NCBI RefSeq assembly: GCF_016583785.1
Contig: NZ_NRRU01000018.1
Coordinates: 1 to 60,481, forward strand
Length of the DNA: 60,481 bases
Direction of reading: 5' to 3'
Source: Rubrivivax gelatinosus
GTDB taxonomy: Bacteria > Pseudomonadota > Gammaproteobacteria > Burkholderiales > Burkholderiaceae_C
This document shows positions 40,472 through 49,819 of this stretch, piece by piece (positions within the stretch are counted from its first letter, which is position 1; each line of letters starts with the position of its first letter). The position numbers and the translations under genes are program-made. The notes under the pieces are model-generated. The model had not been told where the DNA came from and did not search any database. It was given only the letters and a program-made list of their open reading frames with translations.

Positions 40472-42925
40472 TCACGGCGTGGTGGTTCCCCTGGGCGATC
40501 CTCGTTCACGCCGCCACCGTGCGGCGGTCGTGGCCAGACCGATGCCGGCCAGCCACAGTGCCCAGGTCGCCGGCTCGGGCACCATCAGCGCACCGGCCGC
40601 GACCAGGTACTCGAGGCCGAAGTCCTGGGCTCCGACGCCGCTGAACGTGTAGTCCACCGTCAGGTCCACCACGCCACTGAACACGCCAAGGTCCAGCGTG
40701 CGGTCCTTGAAGAAGGACTCGGCGGCGCTCAGCGACGTGAAACTGCGGCTCAGCAGCGTCTGGCCGAAGTTCTCGACGCTGAACCTGAAGTCGATCGGCA
40801 GACCGCCGTCCTGGCCGGTGAAGTCGACGAGGCCGAGGACGACGGGTTGGCTGCCGGCCAGGCTGATGCGGTAGTGGGCACCACCCTCGGCGGAGTGTCC
40901 CGATTCGTCGTCGAGGTAGCCACTGAGGTGCACACCGGTGGCGGTGGCGGCGATGACGCCGAGGGTACCGGACGCCAGCGCCGCGGCGACTGCGGGCGCG
41001 CGGGACAGGGCGCTGGCGACGGTGGTGTCGGCAGGGGCGGCGTCGATGCGGGTGAACGCCTGGTTCACGGAGAAAGGATCCTCGAGCGGCGGGCCGCCGA
41101 CGCCTTCGCCGTGGGCCACGCGCGCCGTGGCCAGGCCGAAGCTGCGGCCTGTCACGACCGCTTTCGCGCTCGTGACGCGCTCGAGTGTGCCGGCGGCCTC
41201 GGCCTGGGCACTGGCGCGGCTGTCACCGTCGCCGGTGGTTTGGGCGCGGACGTCGGCTCGCCCGTCCATGCCTGCCTGTGCCTGCGCCTGTGCGTCGGCA
41301 CGGCGCCAGAGGGAATCGGCGATAGCGGTCGCGGTCGCGGCTCCTCGGCGCTCGCTCGCGTTCGCCTGGGCTTGCGCGGTCGCGTCTGCCCAATCGAGGC
41401 TGCCGACCTCGCTCCGGGCCAACGCCACGCGCCCGGCGCGCGCCGTGGCGGTGCCGGAGGACGAGCCGCCACGGCCCCCCAGGTCGCCGCCCCTGCCGCC
41501 AAAGACGCCGAGCACGGCGTCCGCAGCCGATCCGGGGCTGTCGACAGCGAGTTCCAGGACACCGCGCGCGGCGCCGCCGAAGCCATCTTCGCCGTACACG
41601 GCGCCGTCTTCCGGCGGCCCGTGTGGCCTGCGCACGCTGCCGCCCGCGCCACCTCGGACCTCGAGCGCGCCCGACACCGCGCTCGCTCCGCTGCCGGACC
41701 AGCGCAGCGCCGCGTCGGCCTGGCCGCCGGCGCCGCCATTGCCGCCCTGGGTCGAGTCCGTATCGCCGCCCGACCCGGCTTGCACCCGCGCGCTCAGGTG
41801 CAGTGTGCCCCGCGCGCTGCCGCCGACCGTTCGGCTGGTGAAGACGTCGGCGCCGCGGCCGCCGTCGCCCGCTTGGCTGTCGCCGCCCTTGCCCCCTTGC
41901 AGGAGCAGTGATGCCCAGGCGTCGCCGCTGCCACTGGCGGCGGTCGCGTCTCCGGAGGCCGTGGCGCCATCGCCGCCGGACCCGTACGCGAGCTGACCGT
42001 CGCTGCCGATCGCCGTCACGAAGGATCGGGCTTCGGCGCCCGTCGTCCCGGCGTGACCGGAGGCCGTCGCACGACCGCCACGAGAGAAGCCGCTCGCGTA
42101 GGCGGCCGGGATTCCTCCCTCCGCGCGGACCTCGGCTTGCACCGGGCCGCGCCCATTGACCGAGGCGTGTGCGGTGGCGTCTCCCCCGCCGCCGCCCGAA
42201 TACCCCCAACTGGTGCCGCCCCCCGCACCGCCGATGGCTCGCACCACCGCAACCAGCGGGCGTGTCGGGCTGTCGCTTCCGAGACTGAGCGTGGCGCTGG
42301 CGGCGCCGCCGTCTCCACCGTACGCGAAGTTCTCGGACGCGCCGCCATCGCCCCCGACCGCGGTTGCGAGCGCCAGGTCGGATCCGGTGGCATATCCCGT
42401 GACGTCTGCAGTGGCCATGCCGCCGGCACCGGCCCGGAAGTCCATGCCGCTGGAAGCGCCGCCGTGCCCGCCGACCGCCGATGCCTGGGCGCTGCCACCC
42501 GCGGCGCCGGTCCCGTCCAGCCTCGCACGGGCCTGGGCCCCGCCGCCGTTGCCGCCGTCGGCCGCGCTGCCGGCGCCCCCGGCTCCACCGAATGCCTGCG
42601 CGCTGACGTCGGTCCGGTCCAGCCCCGAGCCGATGGCGGTGGCGCGTGCCGAACCGCCGTATCCCCCCGGGGCGCCGTCGCCCATCCCGCTATTGCCGCC
42701 GGGCCCGCCGTAAGCGCGGGCGGACACGGAGAGCGATTGACCCGCCACATCGGCGAAGCTCTGTTGCGCCGTGGCGCTGCCTCCGTCCTCGCCGACGGCG
42801 CCCGGGACGCCGTGGACGACGGTCTCCTTCGTCAGGTCCGCAGCCCAGGCCGGGGGCCACGCGACCAGCAGCAGGGCCCACATCGCGTGGTACCGACAAG
42901 CGCCGCATCGATTCCGGTAGCCCAT
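40472..42925 (-). CDS. large Gly/Ala-rich PEP-CTERM surface protein
   Basis: An 817-residue exported protein. Signal peptide to ~28 (…VAWPPAWA), then some 550 residues of degenerate repeats, each ~30-40 long, alternating an Ala/Ser beta-like strand (VSAQAFGG, SARATAIG, AQASAVGG) with GGxGG turns, reminiscent of polyglycine-II or beta-solenoid folds. A less repetitive C-terminal region (~600-780) resembles an extracellular beta domain. It ends in VPEPATWALWLAGIGLATTAARWRRER (782 on), the PEP-CTERM sorting signal: VPEP, hydrophobic helix, Arg cluster. Exosortase would cleave it and anchor or release it at the surface. The ATG at 42923-42925 has GAGGAGG at ideal distance; extension to 42985 lacks one. 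The partner exosortase is not in the window. Confidence 0.85.
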   Translation of the reverse strand: MGYRNRCGACRYHAMWALLLVAWPPAWAADLTKETVVHGVPGAVGEDGGSATAQQSFADVAGQSLSVSARAYGGPGGNSGMGDGAPGGYGGSARATAIGSGLDRTDVSAQAFGGAGGAGSAADGGNGGGAQARARLDGTGAAGGSAQASAVGGHGGASSGMDFRAGAGGMATADVTGYATGSDLALATAVGGDGGASENFAYGGDGGAASATLSLGSDSPTRPLVAVVRAIGGAGGGTSWGYSGGGGGDATAHASVNGRGPVQAEVRAEGGIPAAYASGFSRGGRATASGHAGTTGAEARSFVTAIGSDGQLAYGSGGDGATASGDATAASGSGDAWASLLLQGGKGGDSQAGDGGRGADVFTSRTVGGSARGTLHLSARVQAGSGGDTDSTQGGNGGAGGQADAALRWSGSGASAVSGALEVRGGAGGSVRRPHGPPEDGAVYGEDGFGGAARGVLELAVDSPGSAADAVLGVFGGRGGDLGGRGGSSSGTATARAGRVALARSEVGSLDWADATAQAQANASERRGAATATAIADSLWRRADAQAQAQAGMDGRADVRAQTTGDGDSRASAQAEAAGTLERVTSAKAVVTGRSFGLATARVAHGEGVGGPPLEDPFSVNQAFTRIDAAPADTTVASALSRAPAVAAALASGTLGVIAATATGVHLSGYLDDESGHSAEGGAHYRISLAGSQPVVLGLVDFTGQDGGLPIDFRFSVENFGQTLLSRSFTSLSAAESFFKDRTLDLGVFSGVVDLTVDYTFSGVGAQDFGLEYLVAAGALMVPEPATWALWLAGIGLATTAARWRRERGSPRGTTTP

Positions 42926-42944
42926 TTCGGCCTCCTCGAAACGG

Positions 42945-43048
42945 GTTCGACAAGCCTGGAGCATGGCCGAGCGGCCTGCCTTCAATCAAGCGGGCGGCCT
43001 CCGCGGCGAGGCTTCACGACCAGAGAAGTGTGTGCAGGCTTGTCGAAC
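42945..43048. repeat. perfect 14-bp inverted repeat flanking 76 bp
   Basis: GTTCGACAAGCCTG (42945-42958) and its exact reverse complement CAGGCTTGTCGAAC (43035-43048), between the PEP-CTERM start and polA. The interior shows no gene. The sequence is similar to the GTTCGACAAGC-type palindromic elements common in Proteobacteria. It could be a mini-element, a hairpin or an operator. Confidence 0.75.
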
Positions 43049-46129: not shown

Positions 46130-46606
46130 ATGATCCGTCCCGCCCTGCGCCTGAGCGCGCTGCTGGCGGGGGCATTCTCCGGCCTCGTCGCCTGCAGCGA
46201 CCGCGGGGCGGAACCGCCGCTGCATGACGCCGGCGCCCAGCTGCGCGCGGCCGCCGCCGAGCCGGTGCCACGTGCGCGCCAGATCCGCGATCTGCTCGAG
46301 CGTGAGAAGGAATGGGGCGGCGGGCATTCTCCCGTGCCGCGCCGCGGCGCGACCGCGAACACCTTCGCGAAGCTGCGCTCCGAACTCACCCGCGCCGACG
46401 TGCCGGCCCTGCTGCTGCTGATCGAGGACGACGCCGTCGACGTGCGCTCGATGGCGGTGAGCCTGCTCGAGTGCCTGGAGCCGCTGTCCGAACAACTGGT
46501 CGAGCAGCGCGCCGCGCAGGCCGTCGATGCCCAGCGCCGCAGCCGCGACCTCGATGCCTTGATCGGCATCCGCGCCATCCGTGCCGGCGGCACGTCCTGC
46601 CGCTGA
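46130..46606 (+). CDS. hypothetical lipoprotein, helical, upstream of a dockerin protein
   Basis: A 158-residue protein with a signal peptide and lipobox LVAC at 19-22 (MIRPALRLSALLAGAFSGLVAC). The mature part is acidic and helical; ADVPALLLLIEDDAVDVRSMAVSLLECLEPL resembles a single HEAT-like helical repeat. No family recognised. It ends 58 bases before the HetC/VWA/dockerin gene and probably heads its operon; a lipoprotein here may be a membrane tether or periplasmic helper for the two exported neighbours. Start ATG at 46130 gives the shortest signal peptide consistent with the lipobox. Confidence 0.6.
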   Translation: MIRPALRLSALLAGAFSGLVACSDRGAEPPLHDAGAQLRAAAAEPVPRARQIRDLLEREKEWGGGHSPVPRRGATANTFAKLRSELTRADVPALLLLIEDDAVDVRSMAVSLLECLEPLSEQLVEQRAAQAVDAQRRSRDLDALIGIRAIRAGGTSCR

Positions 46607-46664
46607 CCCGTCTTCAGGCCGGCTGCAGGGCCGCTGCAGCGAACGATCGACAGGGAGGCAACTG

Positions 46665-49193
46665 ATGTCATGGCACGAAGTTGAACGCTCGTCCCGCGCT
46701 GCGCTCAGGCGCGCCTGGCTGCTGGCGACGGGCATGGTGATGGCTGCAGGCGCGCTGGCGTTCGCCCCGGGCGGCGGCGTGCACGTCTATCCGGCGTCGA
46801 AGACGCATGGCGAAATCACCGATGAGGCGCTGGCAACGGTTTATGCGTCGGCCGGCTTGACCACGGTCAGCAATTCGATGAAGGCGGCGCGCAAGCAGTT
46901 CGTCGAGGCGAACAAGGCGGTCGACAACGACCAGTTCTCCAGCCGCAAGCATTTCGACGGCGAGAACTTCGCCGGCGGCCAGAGCGAGATCAACGGCCTG
47001 CTGTCCAAGGCGGTGACGCAGGCCAAGGCCGGCGACTTCTCCAATGCGCGCACCAGCGTCGGGGCGGCGTTGCACACGGTTCAGGATTTCTACGCCCATT
47101 CGAACTGGGTCGAACTCGGCAACTCCGCGCCGAGCGCCGAGGTGGGGCGGCCGGGGTCGATCAGCAACACGTCCCCGGTCGGGGACCTGGCCTGCGTCAG
47201 GCTGCCGGCGGTCTGCAACGTCTCCAACCTGGTGACGTCGCGGCTGACCAGCGGCTACTACGGCAAGGAGGACGCGGTCATCCTGCCCGGCAAGTGCCGC
47301 CACGGCGGTTTCTTCGACAGCGGCCCGGGCGCGGACGGGCTGCCGGATCTCACCGGCATCAGCAAGGATTCGGCCGTCTGCCTGGTCACGGGCGCGGGCC
47401 TGGTCGACAGCCCGCACAGCGACTTCAATCCGGCGGCCGCGGCCGTCGCGGTGCGGGCGACGGTGCAGGTCTTCGACGACCTGAAGTCCAAGCTCAGCAC
47501 GAGCGAGTTCAAGTCGCTGCTCGGCGTCGGCCCGAGCCTGGCGTTCTCGATCGACACCACGGGCAGCATGGGCTCGATCATCGCCGGGGTCCGCAGCGCG
47601 GCGATCTCGATCGTCAACAGCCGCCTGGGCACCGAGCAGGAACCGTCGAAGTACGTGCTCAGCCCGTTCAACGACCCGTCCACCGGGCCGGCGACCTCGA
47701 CTGCCGACGCCAACGCCTTCAAGGCCGCGATCGGCGCGCTCGGCGCCAGCGGCGGCGGCGATTGCCCGGAACTGTCGATGGCCGGCAGCTACAGCGCGGT
47801 CGACCTGTCCGACGACCGCGGCGACGTCTTCGTCTTCACCGACGCATCCTCCAAGGACGCCAGCCTGGCGTTTGCGGTCAGCTCGCTCGCGTCGACCAAA
47901 CGCGTCAAGGTCTTCTACGCCCTGTTCGGCAGCTGCTCGCCCTACGACCCCGCCTACTTCAGCGTCGCCAACGCCTCCGGCGGCCAGGTGTTCACGCTCG
48001 CCGCGTCCGAGGCGGGCACGGTCACCCGGCTCAGCGACATCCTGGCGCGCAACAACGCGGTCGACGTCGAGAGCCGCCAGGGCAGCGTCGTCACCGGCGC
48101 GCCGGTCACGATCCCGTTCAGCGTCGATTCCTCGATGTCCAAGCTCAACGTGTCGTACTCGGACATCGACGCCACCACGCTGACGCTTTACCGCCCCGAC
48201 GGCGTCATCGTCACGCCGTCGACGCCCGGCGTGTCGACGATCGCGCTCAGCAACGGCGTGATCTACTCGATCAACCCGCCCGCGGCCGGGGTGTGGCGCG
48301 CCGTCATCGGCGGCAGCGGCCAGTACTCGCTGCTGGTCAACGGCGAGAGCCAGGTCGCGCTGGACCAGTTCGACTTCGCCGAGCTCGCCGGGCGCGGCGG
48401 CCACCAGGGCTACTACGCGATCACGGGGCTGCCGCTGGTCGGCAAGACCTACAAGGCGGTGGCGCGCTTGTCCGGATCACCGGCCTCGGTGGCGTTCGAG
48501 TTTCGCGACCTCGACGGCGCCACCATCGCCCCGTTCGCGCTCGCCGACGCCGACGTGGAGGCCCACTACCTGGCGGGCGACGTGCGCATCCCGTCGCAGA
48601 GCTTTCGCGTCTACGCAACCGGCGCCGATGCCGGCGGCACCGCGTTTCAGCGCCTGATCGCGACCGTCGTCTTCCCGCAGACGGTGAGCGTCAATCCGCC
48701 GGCCGCGGTGGACCTGGGCCAGGGCCAGACGAGCAGCTACGTCTTCGAGGTGCGCAACGAAGGGCCGGCAGCGACCTTCGTCTTCGCGGCCAAGGACACG
48801 GCCGGCTTCGTTTCCGGGAGCATGACGCCGGCCTCGGCGACGCTGGCCACCGGGGCTTCGGCGCTGACCAAGGTGACGCTGAAGGTCGGTGCCGCGATAC
48901 CGGTCGGGACCCGTGACTCGCTCACCGTCACGGCCACCGATGCGGCCGATGCTGCGCGGCGCAACTTCGCGGTGCTGACGAGTTCGGTCGTCGCACCCAA
49001 GGTCTCGGGCGACGTGAACCGCGACGGCGTGGTCGACTGCGGCGACCTGAACCTCGTCAAGGCCTCGTTCGGCAGCCGCACGGGCTCGCGCGCGTTCAAC
49101 CCGGACGTCGATGTCGACGGCAACGGCGTGATCGACGCGCGCGACCTCGCCTTCGTCGCCCGGCTGGTGCCGGCCGGGACGGTGTGCAAATGA
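46665..49193 (+). CDS. secreted HetC/phospholipase-C-like + VWA protein with C-terminal type I dockerin
   Basis: An 842-residue exported protein (signal ~1-33). The N-terminal domain (~40-270) resembles the HetC/VWA7 family: THGEITDEAL at 47-56 and HTVQDFYAHSNW with H137, D141 and H145, an H-x3-D-x3-H arrangement related to zinc-dependent phospholipase C. A VWA domain (~290-470) has the MIDAS motif D297-x-T-G-S301 (DTTGSMG) and GGDCPELS. Ig-like or beta-sandwich segments follow (~480-775). The last 60 residues are a dockerin: two calcium loops DVNRDGVVDCGD (783-794) and DVDGNGVIDARD, with Cys in loop 1 and near the C-terminus. Start ATG at 46665 follows AGGGAGG. The next gene, 26 bases on, encodes a cohesin-like PEP-CTERM protein. 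Enzymatic activity is unproven. Confidence 0.85.
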   Translation: MSWHEVERSSRAALRRAWLLATGMVMAAGALAFAPGGGVHVYPASKTHGEITDEALATVYASAGLTTVSNSMKAARKQFVEANKAVDNDQFSSRKHFDGENFAGGQSEINGLLSKAVTQAKAGDFSNARTSVGAALHTVQDFYAHSNWVELGNSAPSAEVGRPGSISNTSPVGDLACVRLPAVCNVSNLVTSRLTSGYYGKEDAVILPGKCRHGGFFDSGPGADGLPDLTGISKDSAVCLVTGAGLVDSPHSDFNPAAAAVAVRATVQVFDDLKSKLSTSEFKSLLGVGPSLAFSIDTTGSMGSIIAGVRSAAISIVNSRLGTEQEPSKYVLSPFNDPSTGPATSTADANAFKAAIGALGASGGGDCPELSMAGSYSAVDLSDDRGDVFVFTDASSKDASLAFAVSSLASTKRVKVFYALFGSCSPYDPAYFSVANASGGQVFTLAASEAGTVTRLSDILARNNAVDVESRQGSVVTGAPVTIPFSVDSSMSKLNVSYSDIDATTLTLYRPDGVIVTPSTPGVSTIALSNGVIYSINPPAAGVWRAVIGGSGQYSLLVNGESQVALDQFDFAELAGRGGHQGYYAITGLPLVGKTYKAVARLSGSPASVAFEFRDLDGATIAPFALADADVEAHYLAGDVRIPSQSFRVYATGADAGGTAFQRLIATVVFPQTVSVNPPAAVDLGQGQTSSYVFEVRNEGPAATFVFAAKDTAGFVSGSMTPASATLATGASALTKVTLKVGAAIPVGTRDSLTVTATDAADAARRNFAVLTSSVVAPKVSGDVNRDGVVDCGDLNLVKASFGSRTGSRAFNPDVDVDGNGVIDARDLAFVARLVPAGTVCK

Positions 49194-49219
49194 TCGGGTT
49201 CGACTTTCGGGAGGACAAC

Positions 49220-49819
49220 ATGATGGATCGATGCTGGATGCAGAGAATCGTGCGCCGGGTTTGGGCGTGCGTGTTCGCGTTGGGCCTGCCCCTGGCCGCG
49301 CATGCGACGGCGGTGACGCTGACGCCGACAGGCCCGACGACGGTCGCGGTCGGCGAGACGATCACCTTCGACCTGGGCATCAGCGATGCGGTCGACCTGT
49401 TCGCGTTCCAGTTCTCGCTGCAGTTCGACCCGGCGATCGTCCAGGGCCTGACGCTGAGCGAGGGCCCTGCGCTGGGCACGGCGGGCACGACGTTCTTCAT
49501 CGCCGGCGCGTTCGACAAACTGTCCGGGCTGCTCGAGCTGACCGGCTCCTCGCTGATCGGCGCGATCCCCGGCTTCAGCGGCAGCGGCGTCCTGGCGTCG
49601 CTGACGTTTTCCGCGCTCGGCCCTGGCACGAGCGCGATCGAGCTCGGCGATGTGTTGCTGCTCGACTCGTCGTTCACCATCGCCGAGGCCACGCTCGCTT
49701 CGTCTGCGGTGGTCGTGGCCGAGCAGGCGGTGCCGGAGCCGGCGACGCTGGCGCTCGTGCTGACGGCATTGGCGGCAGCGGCGTCCACACGCGGCGGTGC
49801 AAGGCGTCGGGCCGGCTGA
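49220..49819 (+). CDS. cohesin-like PEP-CTERM protein
   Basis: A 199-residue protein: signal peptide to ~29 (LGLPLAAHA), a single domain (31-168) with cohesin features, and a C-terminal VPEPATLALVLTALAAAAS helix plus GGARRR (171-199), the PEP-CTERM sorting signal. Cohesin-like marks are the opening VTLTPTGPTTVAVGETITFDLGI, AFQFSLQFDPAIVQGLTLS and GVLASLTFSALGPGTSAIELGDVLLLDS, the beta-strand pattern of type I cohesins that bind dockerins. Start ATG at 49220 after CGGGAGGA; 49223 is equivalent. It directly follows the dockerin protein, so it is a candidate surface receptor for it. The domain is short (~138 residues), normal for cohesins. Confidence 0.8.
   Translation: MMDRCWMQRIVRRVWACVFALGLPLAAHATAVTLTPTGPTTVAVGETITFDLGISDAVDLFAFQFSLQFDPAIVQGLTLSEGPALGTAGTTFFIAGAFDKLSGLLELTGSSLIGAIPGFSGSGVLASLTFSALGPGTSAIELGDVLLLDSSFTIAEATLASSAVVVAEQAVPEPATLALVLTALAAAASTRGGARRRAG

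Follow-up and report, generated by a model that had tools for sequence, protein, structure and literature searches.

A dockerin-tailed VWA7-like protein and a candidate exosortase-sorted cohesin socket in Rubrivivax gelatinosus

In a 60,481-nucleotide stretch of Rubrivivax gelatinosus DNA (contig NZ_NRRU01000018.1, hereafter the window), a gene for a VWA7-like protein that ends in a dockerin (46665..49193, + strand) is followed after 26 bp by a gene for a 199-residue cohesin protein with a PEP-CTERM tail (49220..49819, + strand). Judged from the sequences, the VWA7-like protein (the cargo) is probably displayed non-covalently by the cohesin protein (the socket), which would be sorted by an exosortase. 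The C-terminal dockerin of the cargo would bind the cohesin encoded by the next gene in a calcium-dependent manner, the PEP-CTERM tail of the socket would be processed by an exosortase of the genome, and in this way the cargo would be retained at the outer surface or within the exopolysaccharide matrix. An exosortase-sorted cohesin holding a dockerin-tailed effector had already been proposed from the letters of the DNA (the sequence-only reading). That proposal is partly supported overall: the cohesin fold and the exosortases stood, and the recurrence of the pair with changing cargo strengthens it.

Domains of the cargo and the socket

The cargo has 842 residues and a predicted N-terminal signal peptide, and contains VWA7_N, VWA_4, GBD_Hemicentin, Ig_VWA7 and Dockerin_1 domains in this order, all above the Pfam cut-offs. 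The reading frames, spacing and domains of the window genes were as the sequence-only reading had given them. Its label "HetC/phospholipase C-like" did not hold, since this part of the cargo is a VWA7_N domain (residues 52-282, 46818..47510, + strand; 126.5 bits), and the Het-C model was barely passed (21.1 bits versus a cut-off of 21.0). VWA chains filled the matches in a fold search of the cargo, so a phospholipase-like N-terminal fold is neither supported nor excluded. H96, H137, D141, H145 and H213 of VWA7_N are invariant in an alignment of 46 sequences and may form a metal-binding site. The von Willebrand A domain follows (residues 291-445, 47535..47999, + strand; Pfam and alignment). Its D297, T299, S301 and D393, which we take to be the metal site of the domain, are likewise invariant among 46 aligned sequences, and with these residues conserved the domain may act as an adhesin or a matrix-binding head.

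The C-terminal part of the cargo is a type I dockerin with two calcium loops (49008..49163, + strand; PF00404, E 1.1e-10, 39.7 bits versus a cut-off of 22.9). Both loops are complete, with D or N at positions 1, 3, 5, 9 and 12 (DVNRDGVVDCGD and DVDGNGVIDARD), exactly as had been read from the sequence. A protein search matched 618 relatives of the cargo, and the best 120 of them were listed. In 49 of 49 pattern-parsable tails among these 120, a cysteine is found at position 10 of loop 1 and another near the C-terminus. In the cargo these are Cys792 (49038..49040, + strand) and Cys841, which adjoins the C-terminus (49185..49187, + strand), and they probably form a disulfide. Because such a bond would block loop 1, loop 2 (A/I/V-R at positions 10-11) is the likely recognition site, and a single binding mode through loop 2 would be expected. 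Position 11 of loop 2 is R or K in 45 of the 49 parsed tails. Among type-A dockerins, counts made by eye gave the loop-2 arginine in 8 of 9 that are paired and in 2 of 5 that are not (P 0.09), and this comparison was not used as evidence.

The socket consists of a cohesin domain (residues 29-168, 49304..49723, + strand) and a PEP-CTERM sorting signal. A cohesin fold in this protein had been set beforehand as one test of the sequence-only reading, and it was predicted: the structure model (pLDDT, predicted local distance difference test, 88.3) is a cohesin beta-sandwich by fold comparison, and PF00963 scored 28.4 bits versus a cut-off of 24.1. The sorting signal (49727..49807, + strand) was recognized from profiles and the structure model and comprises a PEP motif, a helix (residues 174-197) and a basic end; NCBIfam TIGR02595 scored 18.4 bits versus a cut-off of 16, and Pfam PF07589 stayed below its own (18.2 versus 20.7 bits).

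The genome of the window encodes XrtA (334.7 bits, cut-off 208) and XrtB (347 bits, cut-off 275) by NCBIfam, which supplies the exosortase for which the sequence-only reading had asked the genome to be searched, and it has 12 further PEP-CTERM tails at E 0.01. The search for further dockerins, suggested there as well, returned that of the window as the sole PF00404 match. Two cohesin profiles were made for this analysis, and each gave a single match in the genome; genome-scale cohesin counts rest on these profiles, as the Pfam model, when used for the genome search, missed even the window's own cohesin.

Among the 120 listed relatives, most of those closest to the cargo have a dockerin, and some entries in this closest group bear the names of Zoogloea, Massilia and Methylobacter; most on the distant side have none. 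Linkage to a cohesin is suggested, short of proof, for cargo P0002 with cohesin P0125 and for cargo P0005 with cohesin P0126. A direct PEP-CTERM tail on the cargo was also considered and rejected, as 0 of 71 listed relatives (P0050-P0120) had a PEP-type motif in the last 45 residues. The full-length cargo was matched in 1 of 399 genomes of the order, that of the window, and in 5 of 81 genomes of the genus, namely the window's own, three matching in the dockerin tail only, and G456 without a dockerin. No plasmid matched at E 1e-20. When the named genomes were scanned with one generic dockerin-tail pattern, 48 loci with other dockerin-like matches were obtained.

Recurrence of the gene pair and exchange of its cargo

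The sequence-only reading had described a single, isolated pair, which was too narrow, as related pairs recur in the genus, the order and the class. Counted from the dockerins, PF00404 was found at 41 places in 29 of the 81 genus genomes, the window included, and all 41 neighbourhoods were examined. An adjacent PEP-CTERM or cohesin gene was present for 29 of the 41 dockerins and was cohesin-like for 25 (both numbers tallied by hand from the listings; the automated PEP-CTERM count uses a stricter call of the tail). In the genus loci, 28 PEP-CTERM frames lay within 1.5 kb of a dockerin frame, versus 4 in the remaining 377 kb (1.3 expected). With leave-one-out profiles, 28 of 32 neighbour proteins were cohesin-like, and these cover 25 of the 41 dockerins; 28 of the 32 lie beside the 41 hits (one shared by two dockerins), G442 contributed one more, and the order set the other three. 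Profile comparison linked neighbour groups B, C, D and E to the group of the window at 96-98%, and gave no link to it for group F, the partners of amidases. A control with random frames near dockerins (809 of 1972) was uninformative by construction because its loci were dockerin-centred, and a genus figure of 25/29 was not used because most loci had been chosen by dockerin hits and the figure is biased.

Counted from the cohesins, a dockerin frame within 1.5 kb was found for 10 of 14 non-secretin cohesins in the genus (17 matches, of which three long frames were dropped, L110 and L111 as confirmed secretins and G405:C134 by length alone, and L069 was kept as a miss). The same was found for 4 of 5 short cohesin matches in the order (399 genomes, 36 matches, 31 of them left out as secretin-like by frame length only, 649-955 residues), and for 17 of 24 cohesins examined in the class, the window included (256 genomes, 25 matches, leaving out G715 with its 816-residue frame). 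None of 6155 reversed frames matched either profile. Both domains co-occurred in 9 class genomes, that of the window excluded, when 2.2 were expected (P 4.8e-5, in a set that includes cohesins without a visible sorting tail), and in 9 genus genomes when 4.2 were expected (P 0.003); both P values are uncorrected for species relatedness.

In the class, the tails of several sockets are VPLPA- or VPVPA-like, which is another exosortase signal, and the dockerin frames beside them partly carry thrombospondin type 3 repeats. At L113, a cohesin with a VPLPA-like tail adjoins four frames that bear a dockerin, and several cargo proteins may therefore share a single socket. L115 looks scaffoldin-like: 6.4 kb of it hold at least three frames with a cohesin and two with a dockerin, among them one that carries both.

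The protein that carries the dockerin changes from locus to locus. In G424, one of the three genomes that matched the cargo by its dockerin tail alone, an M20 peptidase bears the tail and a cohesin-PEP-CTERM gene comes next; in the other two, G462 and G418, the tail is on M12B peptidases, with the cohesin-PEP-CTERM gene divergent. By Pfam, the cargo beside cohesin sockets includes VWA7, M20, M12B (six loci) and C25 peptidases (seven loci), and further a metallo-beta-lactamase fold, a beta-lactamase (PF00144, two loci), a metallophosphatase and PKD/Ig domains; at L118 a subtilase stands beside a socket, its dockerin called by a profile made here alone. In the genus, 25 dockerin proteins are paired with a cohesin; peptidases of these kinds make up 12 of them, and in several others the dockerin is the sole Pfam domain. 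The plug and socket genes are divergent at L058, L059 and L063-L065, and in this orientation a shared transcript cannot explain why they stay together.

The dockerin and cohesin distances of 28 pairs were correlated (r 0.78), and the correlation persisted over the 327 of 378 pairings in which no similarity of the cargo was detected (r 0.63, in a set where two loci of beta-lactamase type were by mistake counted as having unrelated cargo); 0 of 5000 permutations reached either value. Co-inheritance of neighbouring genes in the absence of binding would also give such a correlation. More weight than on the correlation lies on the exchange of the catalytic part beside a plug and socket that remain joined, which is seen in divergent pairs too.

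Elsewhere, plug-socket pairs related to that of the window would anchor proteases and other hydrolases. Taken beyond the window, these results incline us, with less confidence than for the window pair, towards a general modular display system of Gram-negative bacteria. Exosortase-sorted single-cohesin sockets would each lie beside their own dockerin cargo, and the cargo would be exchanged among adhesin heads, M12B, C25, M20 and subtilisin-type proteases and phosphatases. More than one plug-socket pair occurs in some genomes (e.g. G403, G404 and G418), and several orthogonal types per genome may be told apart by their cysteine staples and tails.

Unpaired modules and alternative explanations

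The pairing of dockerin and cohesin is common, not universal, because there are M12B dockerins without a socket, sockets without a plug, and amidase partners with no recognisable cohesin. The following observations weigh against docking on an exosortase-sorted socket. Among the neighbour proteins, 21 of the 32 were scanned with Pfam; six passed the cohesin cut-off, seven were below it and eight had no match, and most neighbour cohesin calls therefore rest on the profiles made here. An anchor-like tail was seen with a loose pattern in only 12 of the 16 non-window class cohesins that have a dockerin nearby. The dockerin of G442 has lost loop 1 and was missed by Pfam.

Further points of this kind come from the unpaired modules. 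Twelve of the 41 genus dockerins have no adjacent partner. They include four very long frames (1313-7976 residues), two of which end at a contig end, L090 (also at a contig end), L082, and L099, where a cohesin-like frame without a sorting tail lies 1.55 kb away. The remaining five, dockerin-tailed M12B peptidases (L070-L074), have no cohesin or PEP-CTERM neighbour in the stretch examined; of the ten M12B-dockerin proteins identified in the genus, the other five do. In 4 of the 29 neighbourhoods with a partner gene, the PEP-CTERM neighbour has no recognisable cohesin (L076, L091, L103 and L108). At two of these, L076 and L091, the dockerin protein is an amidase and its PEP-CTERM neighbour belongs to a different family that was not recognised, which may represent another socket fold. 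Conversely, lone cohesin-PEP-CTERM genes were found at L069, L086, L087, L088, L112, L126 and L134. The first of them (L069:6929-9415, + strand) is a frame of 828 residues in which RCC1 repeats follow a cohesin and an internal PEP-CTERM-like match, and has no dockerin nearby.

Such modules can be explained if the two proteins are co-inherited secreted proteins that do not bind each other, the dockerin being a C-terminal cap stabilised by calcium and a disulfide and the cohesin a separate matrix protein. The five M12B proteins without a socket nearby fit this explanation, as does the existence of cohesins alone. In contrast, the two domains travel together across unrelated cargo and orientations, including the five divergent loci, and co-occur in genomes above chance. 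We consider this explanation unlikely and prefer docking of the cargo on the socket.

Docking could also be real and serve secretion rather than display, with a dockerin that is received by several sockets including cohesin-bearing secretins. Two secretins (L110:5889-8486 and L111:2190-5027, both - strand; STN, Secretin_N and Secretin domains) do carry a C-terminal cohesin above the Pfam cut-off, and frames of secretin length match the cohesin profile in 31 of the 399 order genomes, judged by length only. However, the window genome has only one cohesin match, and the cohesin next to the dockerin bears a sorting tail itself. A role in secretion is considered quite improbable.

Relation to known systems and neighbouring genes

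The arrangement resembles the surface anchoring of clostridial cellulosomes in its calcium-loop dockerin, its cohesin and a surface-attachment signal on the socket. It differs from them in that one socket lies beside one cargo and a Gram-negative exosortase signal takes the place of the wall anchor. A true cellulosome is ruled out by the one cohesin, the one dockerin and a cargo without a glycoside hydrolase domain. No multi-cohesin scaffoldin was found in the window genome (one match with each of the two profiles), the single PF00404 match leaves no set of dockerin-bearing enzymes there, and Pfam gave neither a glycoside hydrolase, as the sequence-only reading had said, nor a carbohydrate-binding module in the cargo, the search for carbohydrate-active enzymes being confined to this protein. 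The socket is predicted to share the fold of the non-cellulosomal cohesins of Archaeoglobus (2xdh) and Clostridium perfringens (2jh2); unlike in those modules, dockerin and cohesin are encoded here by adjacent genes and the cohesin bears a sorting signal. With the VWA7 family the cargo shares the VWA7_N, VWA, hemicentin-type and VWA7 Ig domains, all above cut-off. To our knowledge the vertebrate VWA7 protein has no dockerin, and many bacterial VWA7-like relatives, unlike the window cargo, also lack one.

The function of cohesins and dockerins outside the cellulosome is called not known in a review on methane-oxidising archaea, which lists exosortase and dockerin/cohesin among surface features (PMC5244752, citing Peer et al. 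2009); in the literature searched it was the only paper to combine exosortase with dockerin or cohesin. The signal and the enzymes of PEP-CTERM/exosortase sorting, as described by Haft et al. 2006 (PMC1569441), are both present here. In the portion of that paper accessible to us, most PEP-CTERM proteins are placed in single-gene operons and the words dockerin and cohesin are absent; unlike the proteins described there, the sorted protein here would be an adaptor for a second protein. In the literature searched, with subscription papers mostly outside its scope, no description of adjacent dockerin-cargo and cohesin-PEP-CTERM genes and no paper treating PEP-CTERM together with cohesin was found. 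JGI annotation already names single proteins "Cohesin domain/PEP-CTERM motif". What is new is that the window pair is not isolated and that the gene pair recurs with changing cargo. If the proposed docking is true, cohesin-dockerin pairs outside cellulosomes would serve to attach secreted enzymes and adhesins non-covalently to an exosortase-sorted adaptor, which would explain how exosortase systems can display large proteins without a PEP-CTERM tail of their own. Natural plug-socket pairs, perhaps orthogonal to each other, would then be at hand.

Upstream of the cargo gene lies a gene for a small putative lipoprotein (46130..46606, + strand), with a lipobox (GLVAC) read by eye. The sequence-only reading had counted it as a member of the operon; adjacency apart, no link to the pair was seen. 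The lipoprotein might be the true anchor of a three-part complex that it forms with cargo and cohesin in the periplasm or on the outer membrane, and the common strand and the spacing of 58 bp to the cargo gene agree with this. The protein search gave only four relatives of the lipoprotein, and there was no sign of linkage, as none of the four was matched to the assembly of any of the 120 listed cargo relatives, the search for lipoproteins being limited to these and not extended to the other loci. A lipoprotein anchor is considered very improbable, and anchoring through the cohesin socket remains the preferred explanation. Elsewhere in the window (40472-42985, - strand), an 837-residue glycine-rich repeat protein has its own PEP-CTERM-like tail (VPEPATWALWLAG) and is a probable second exosortase substrate.

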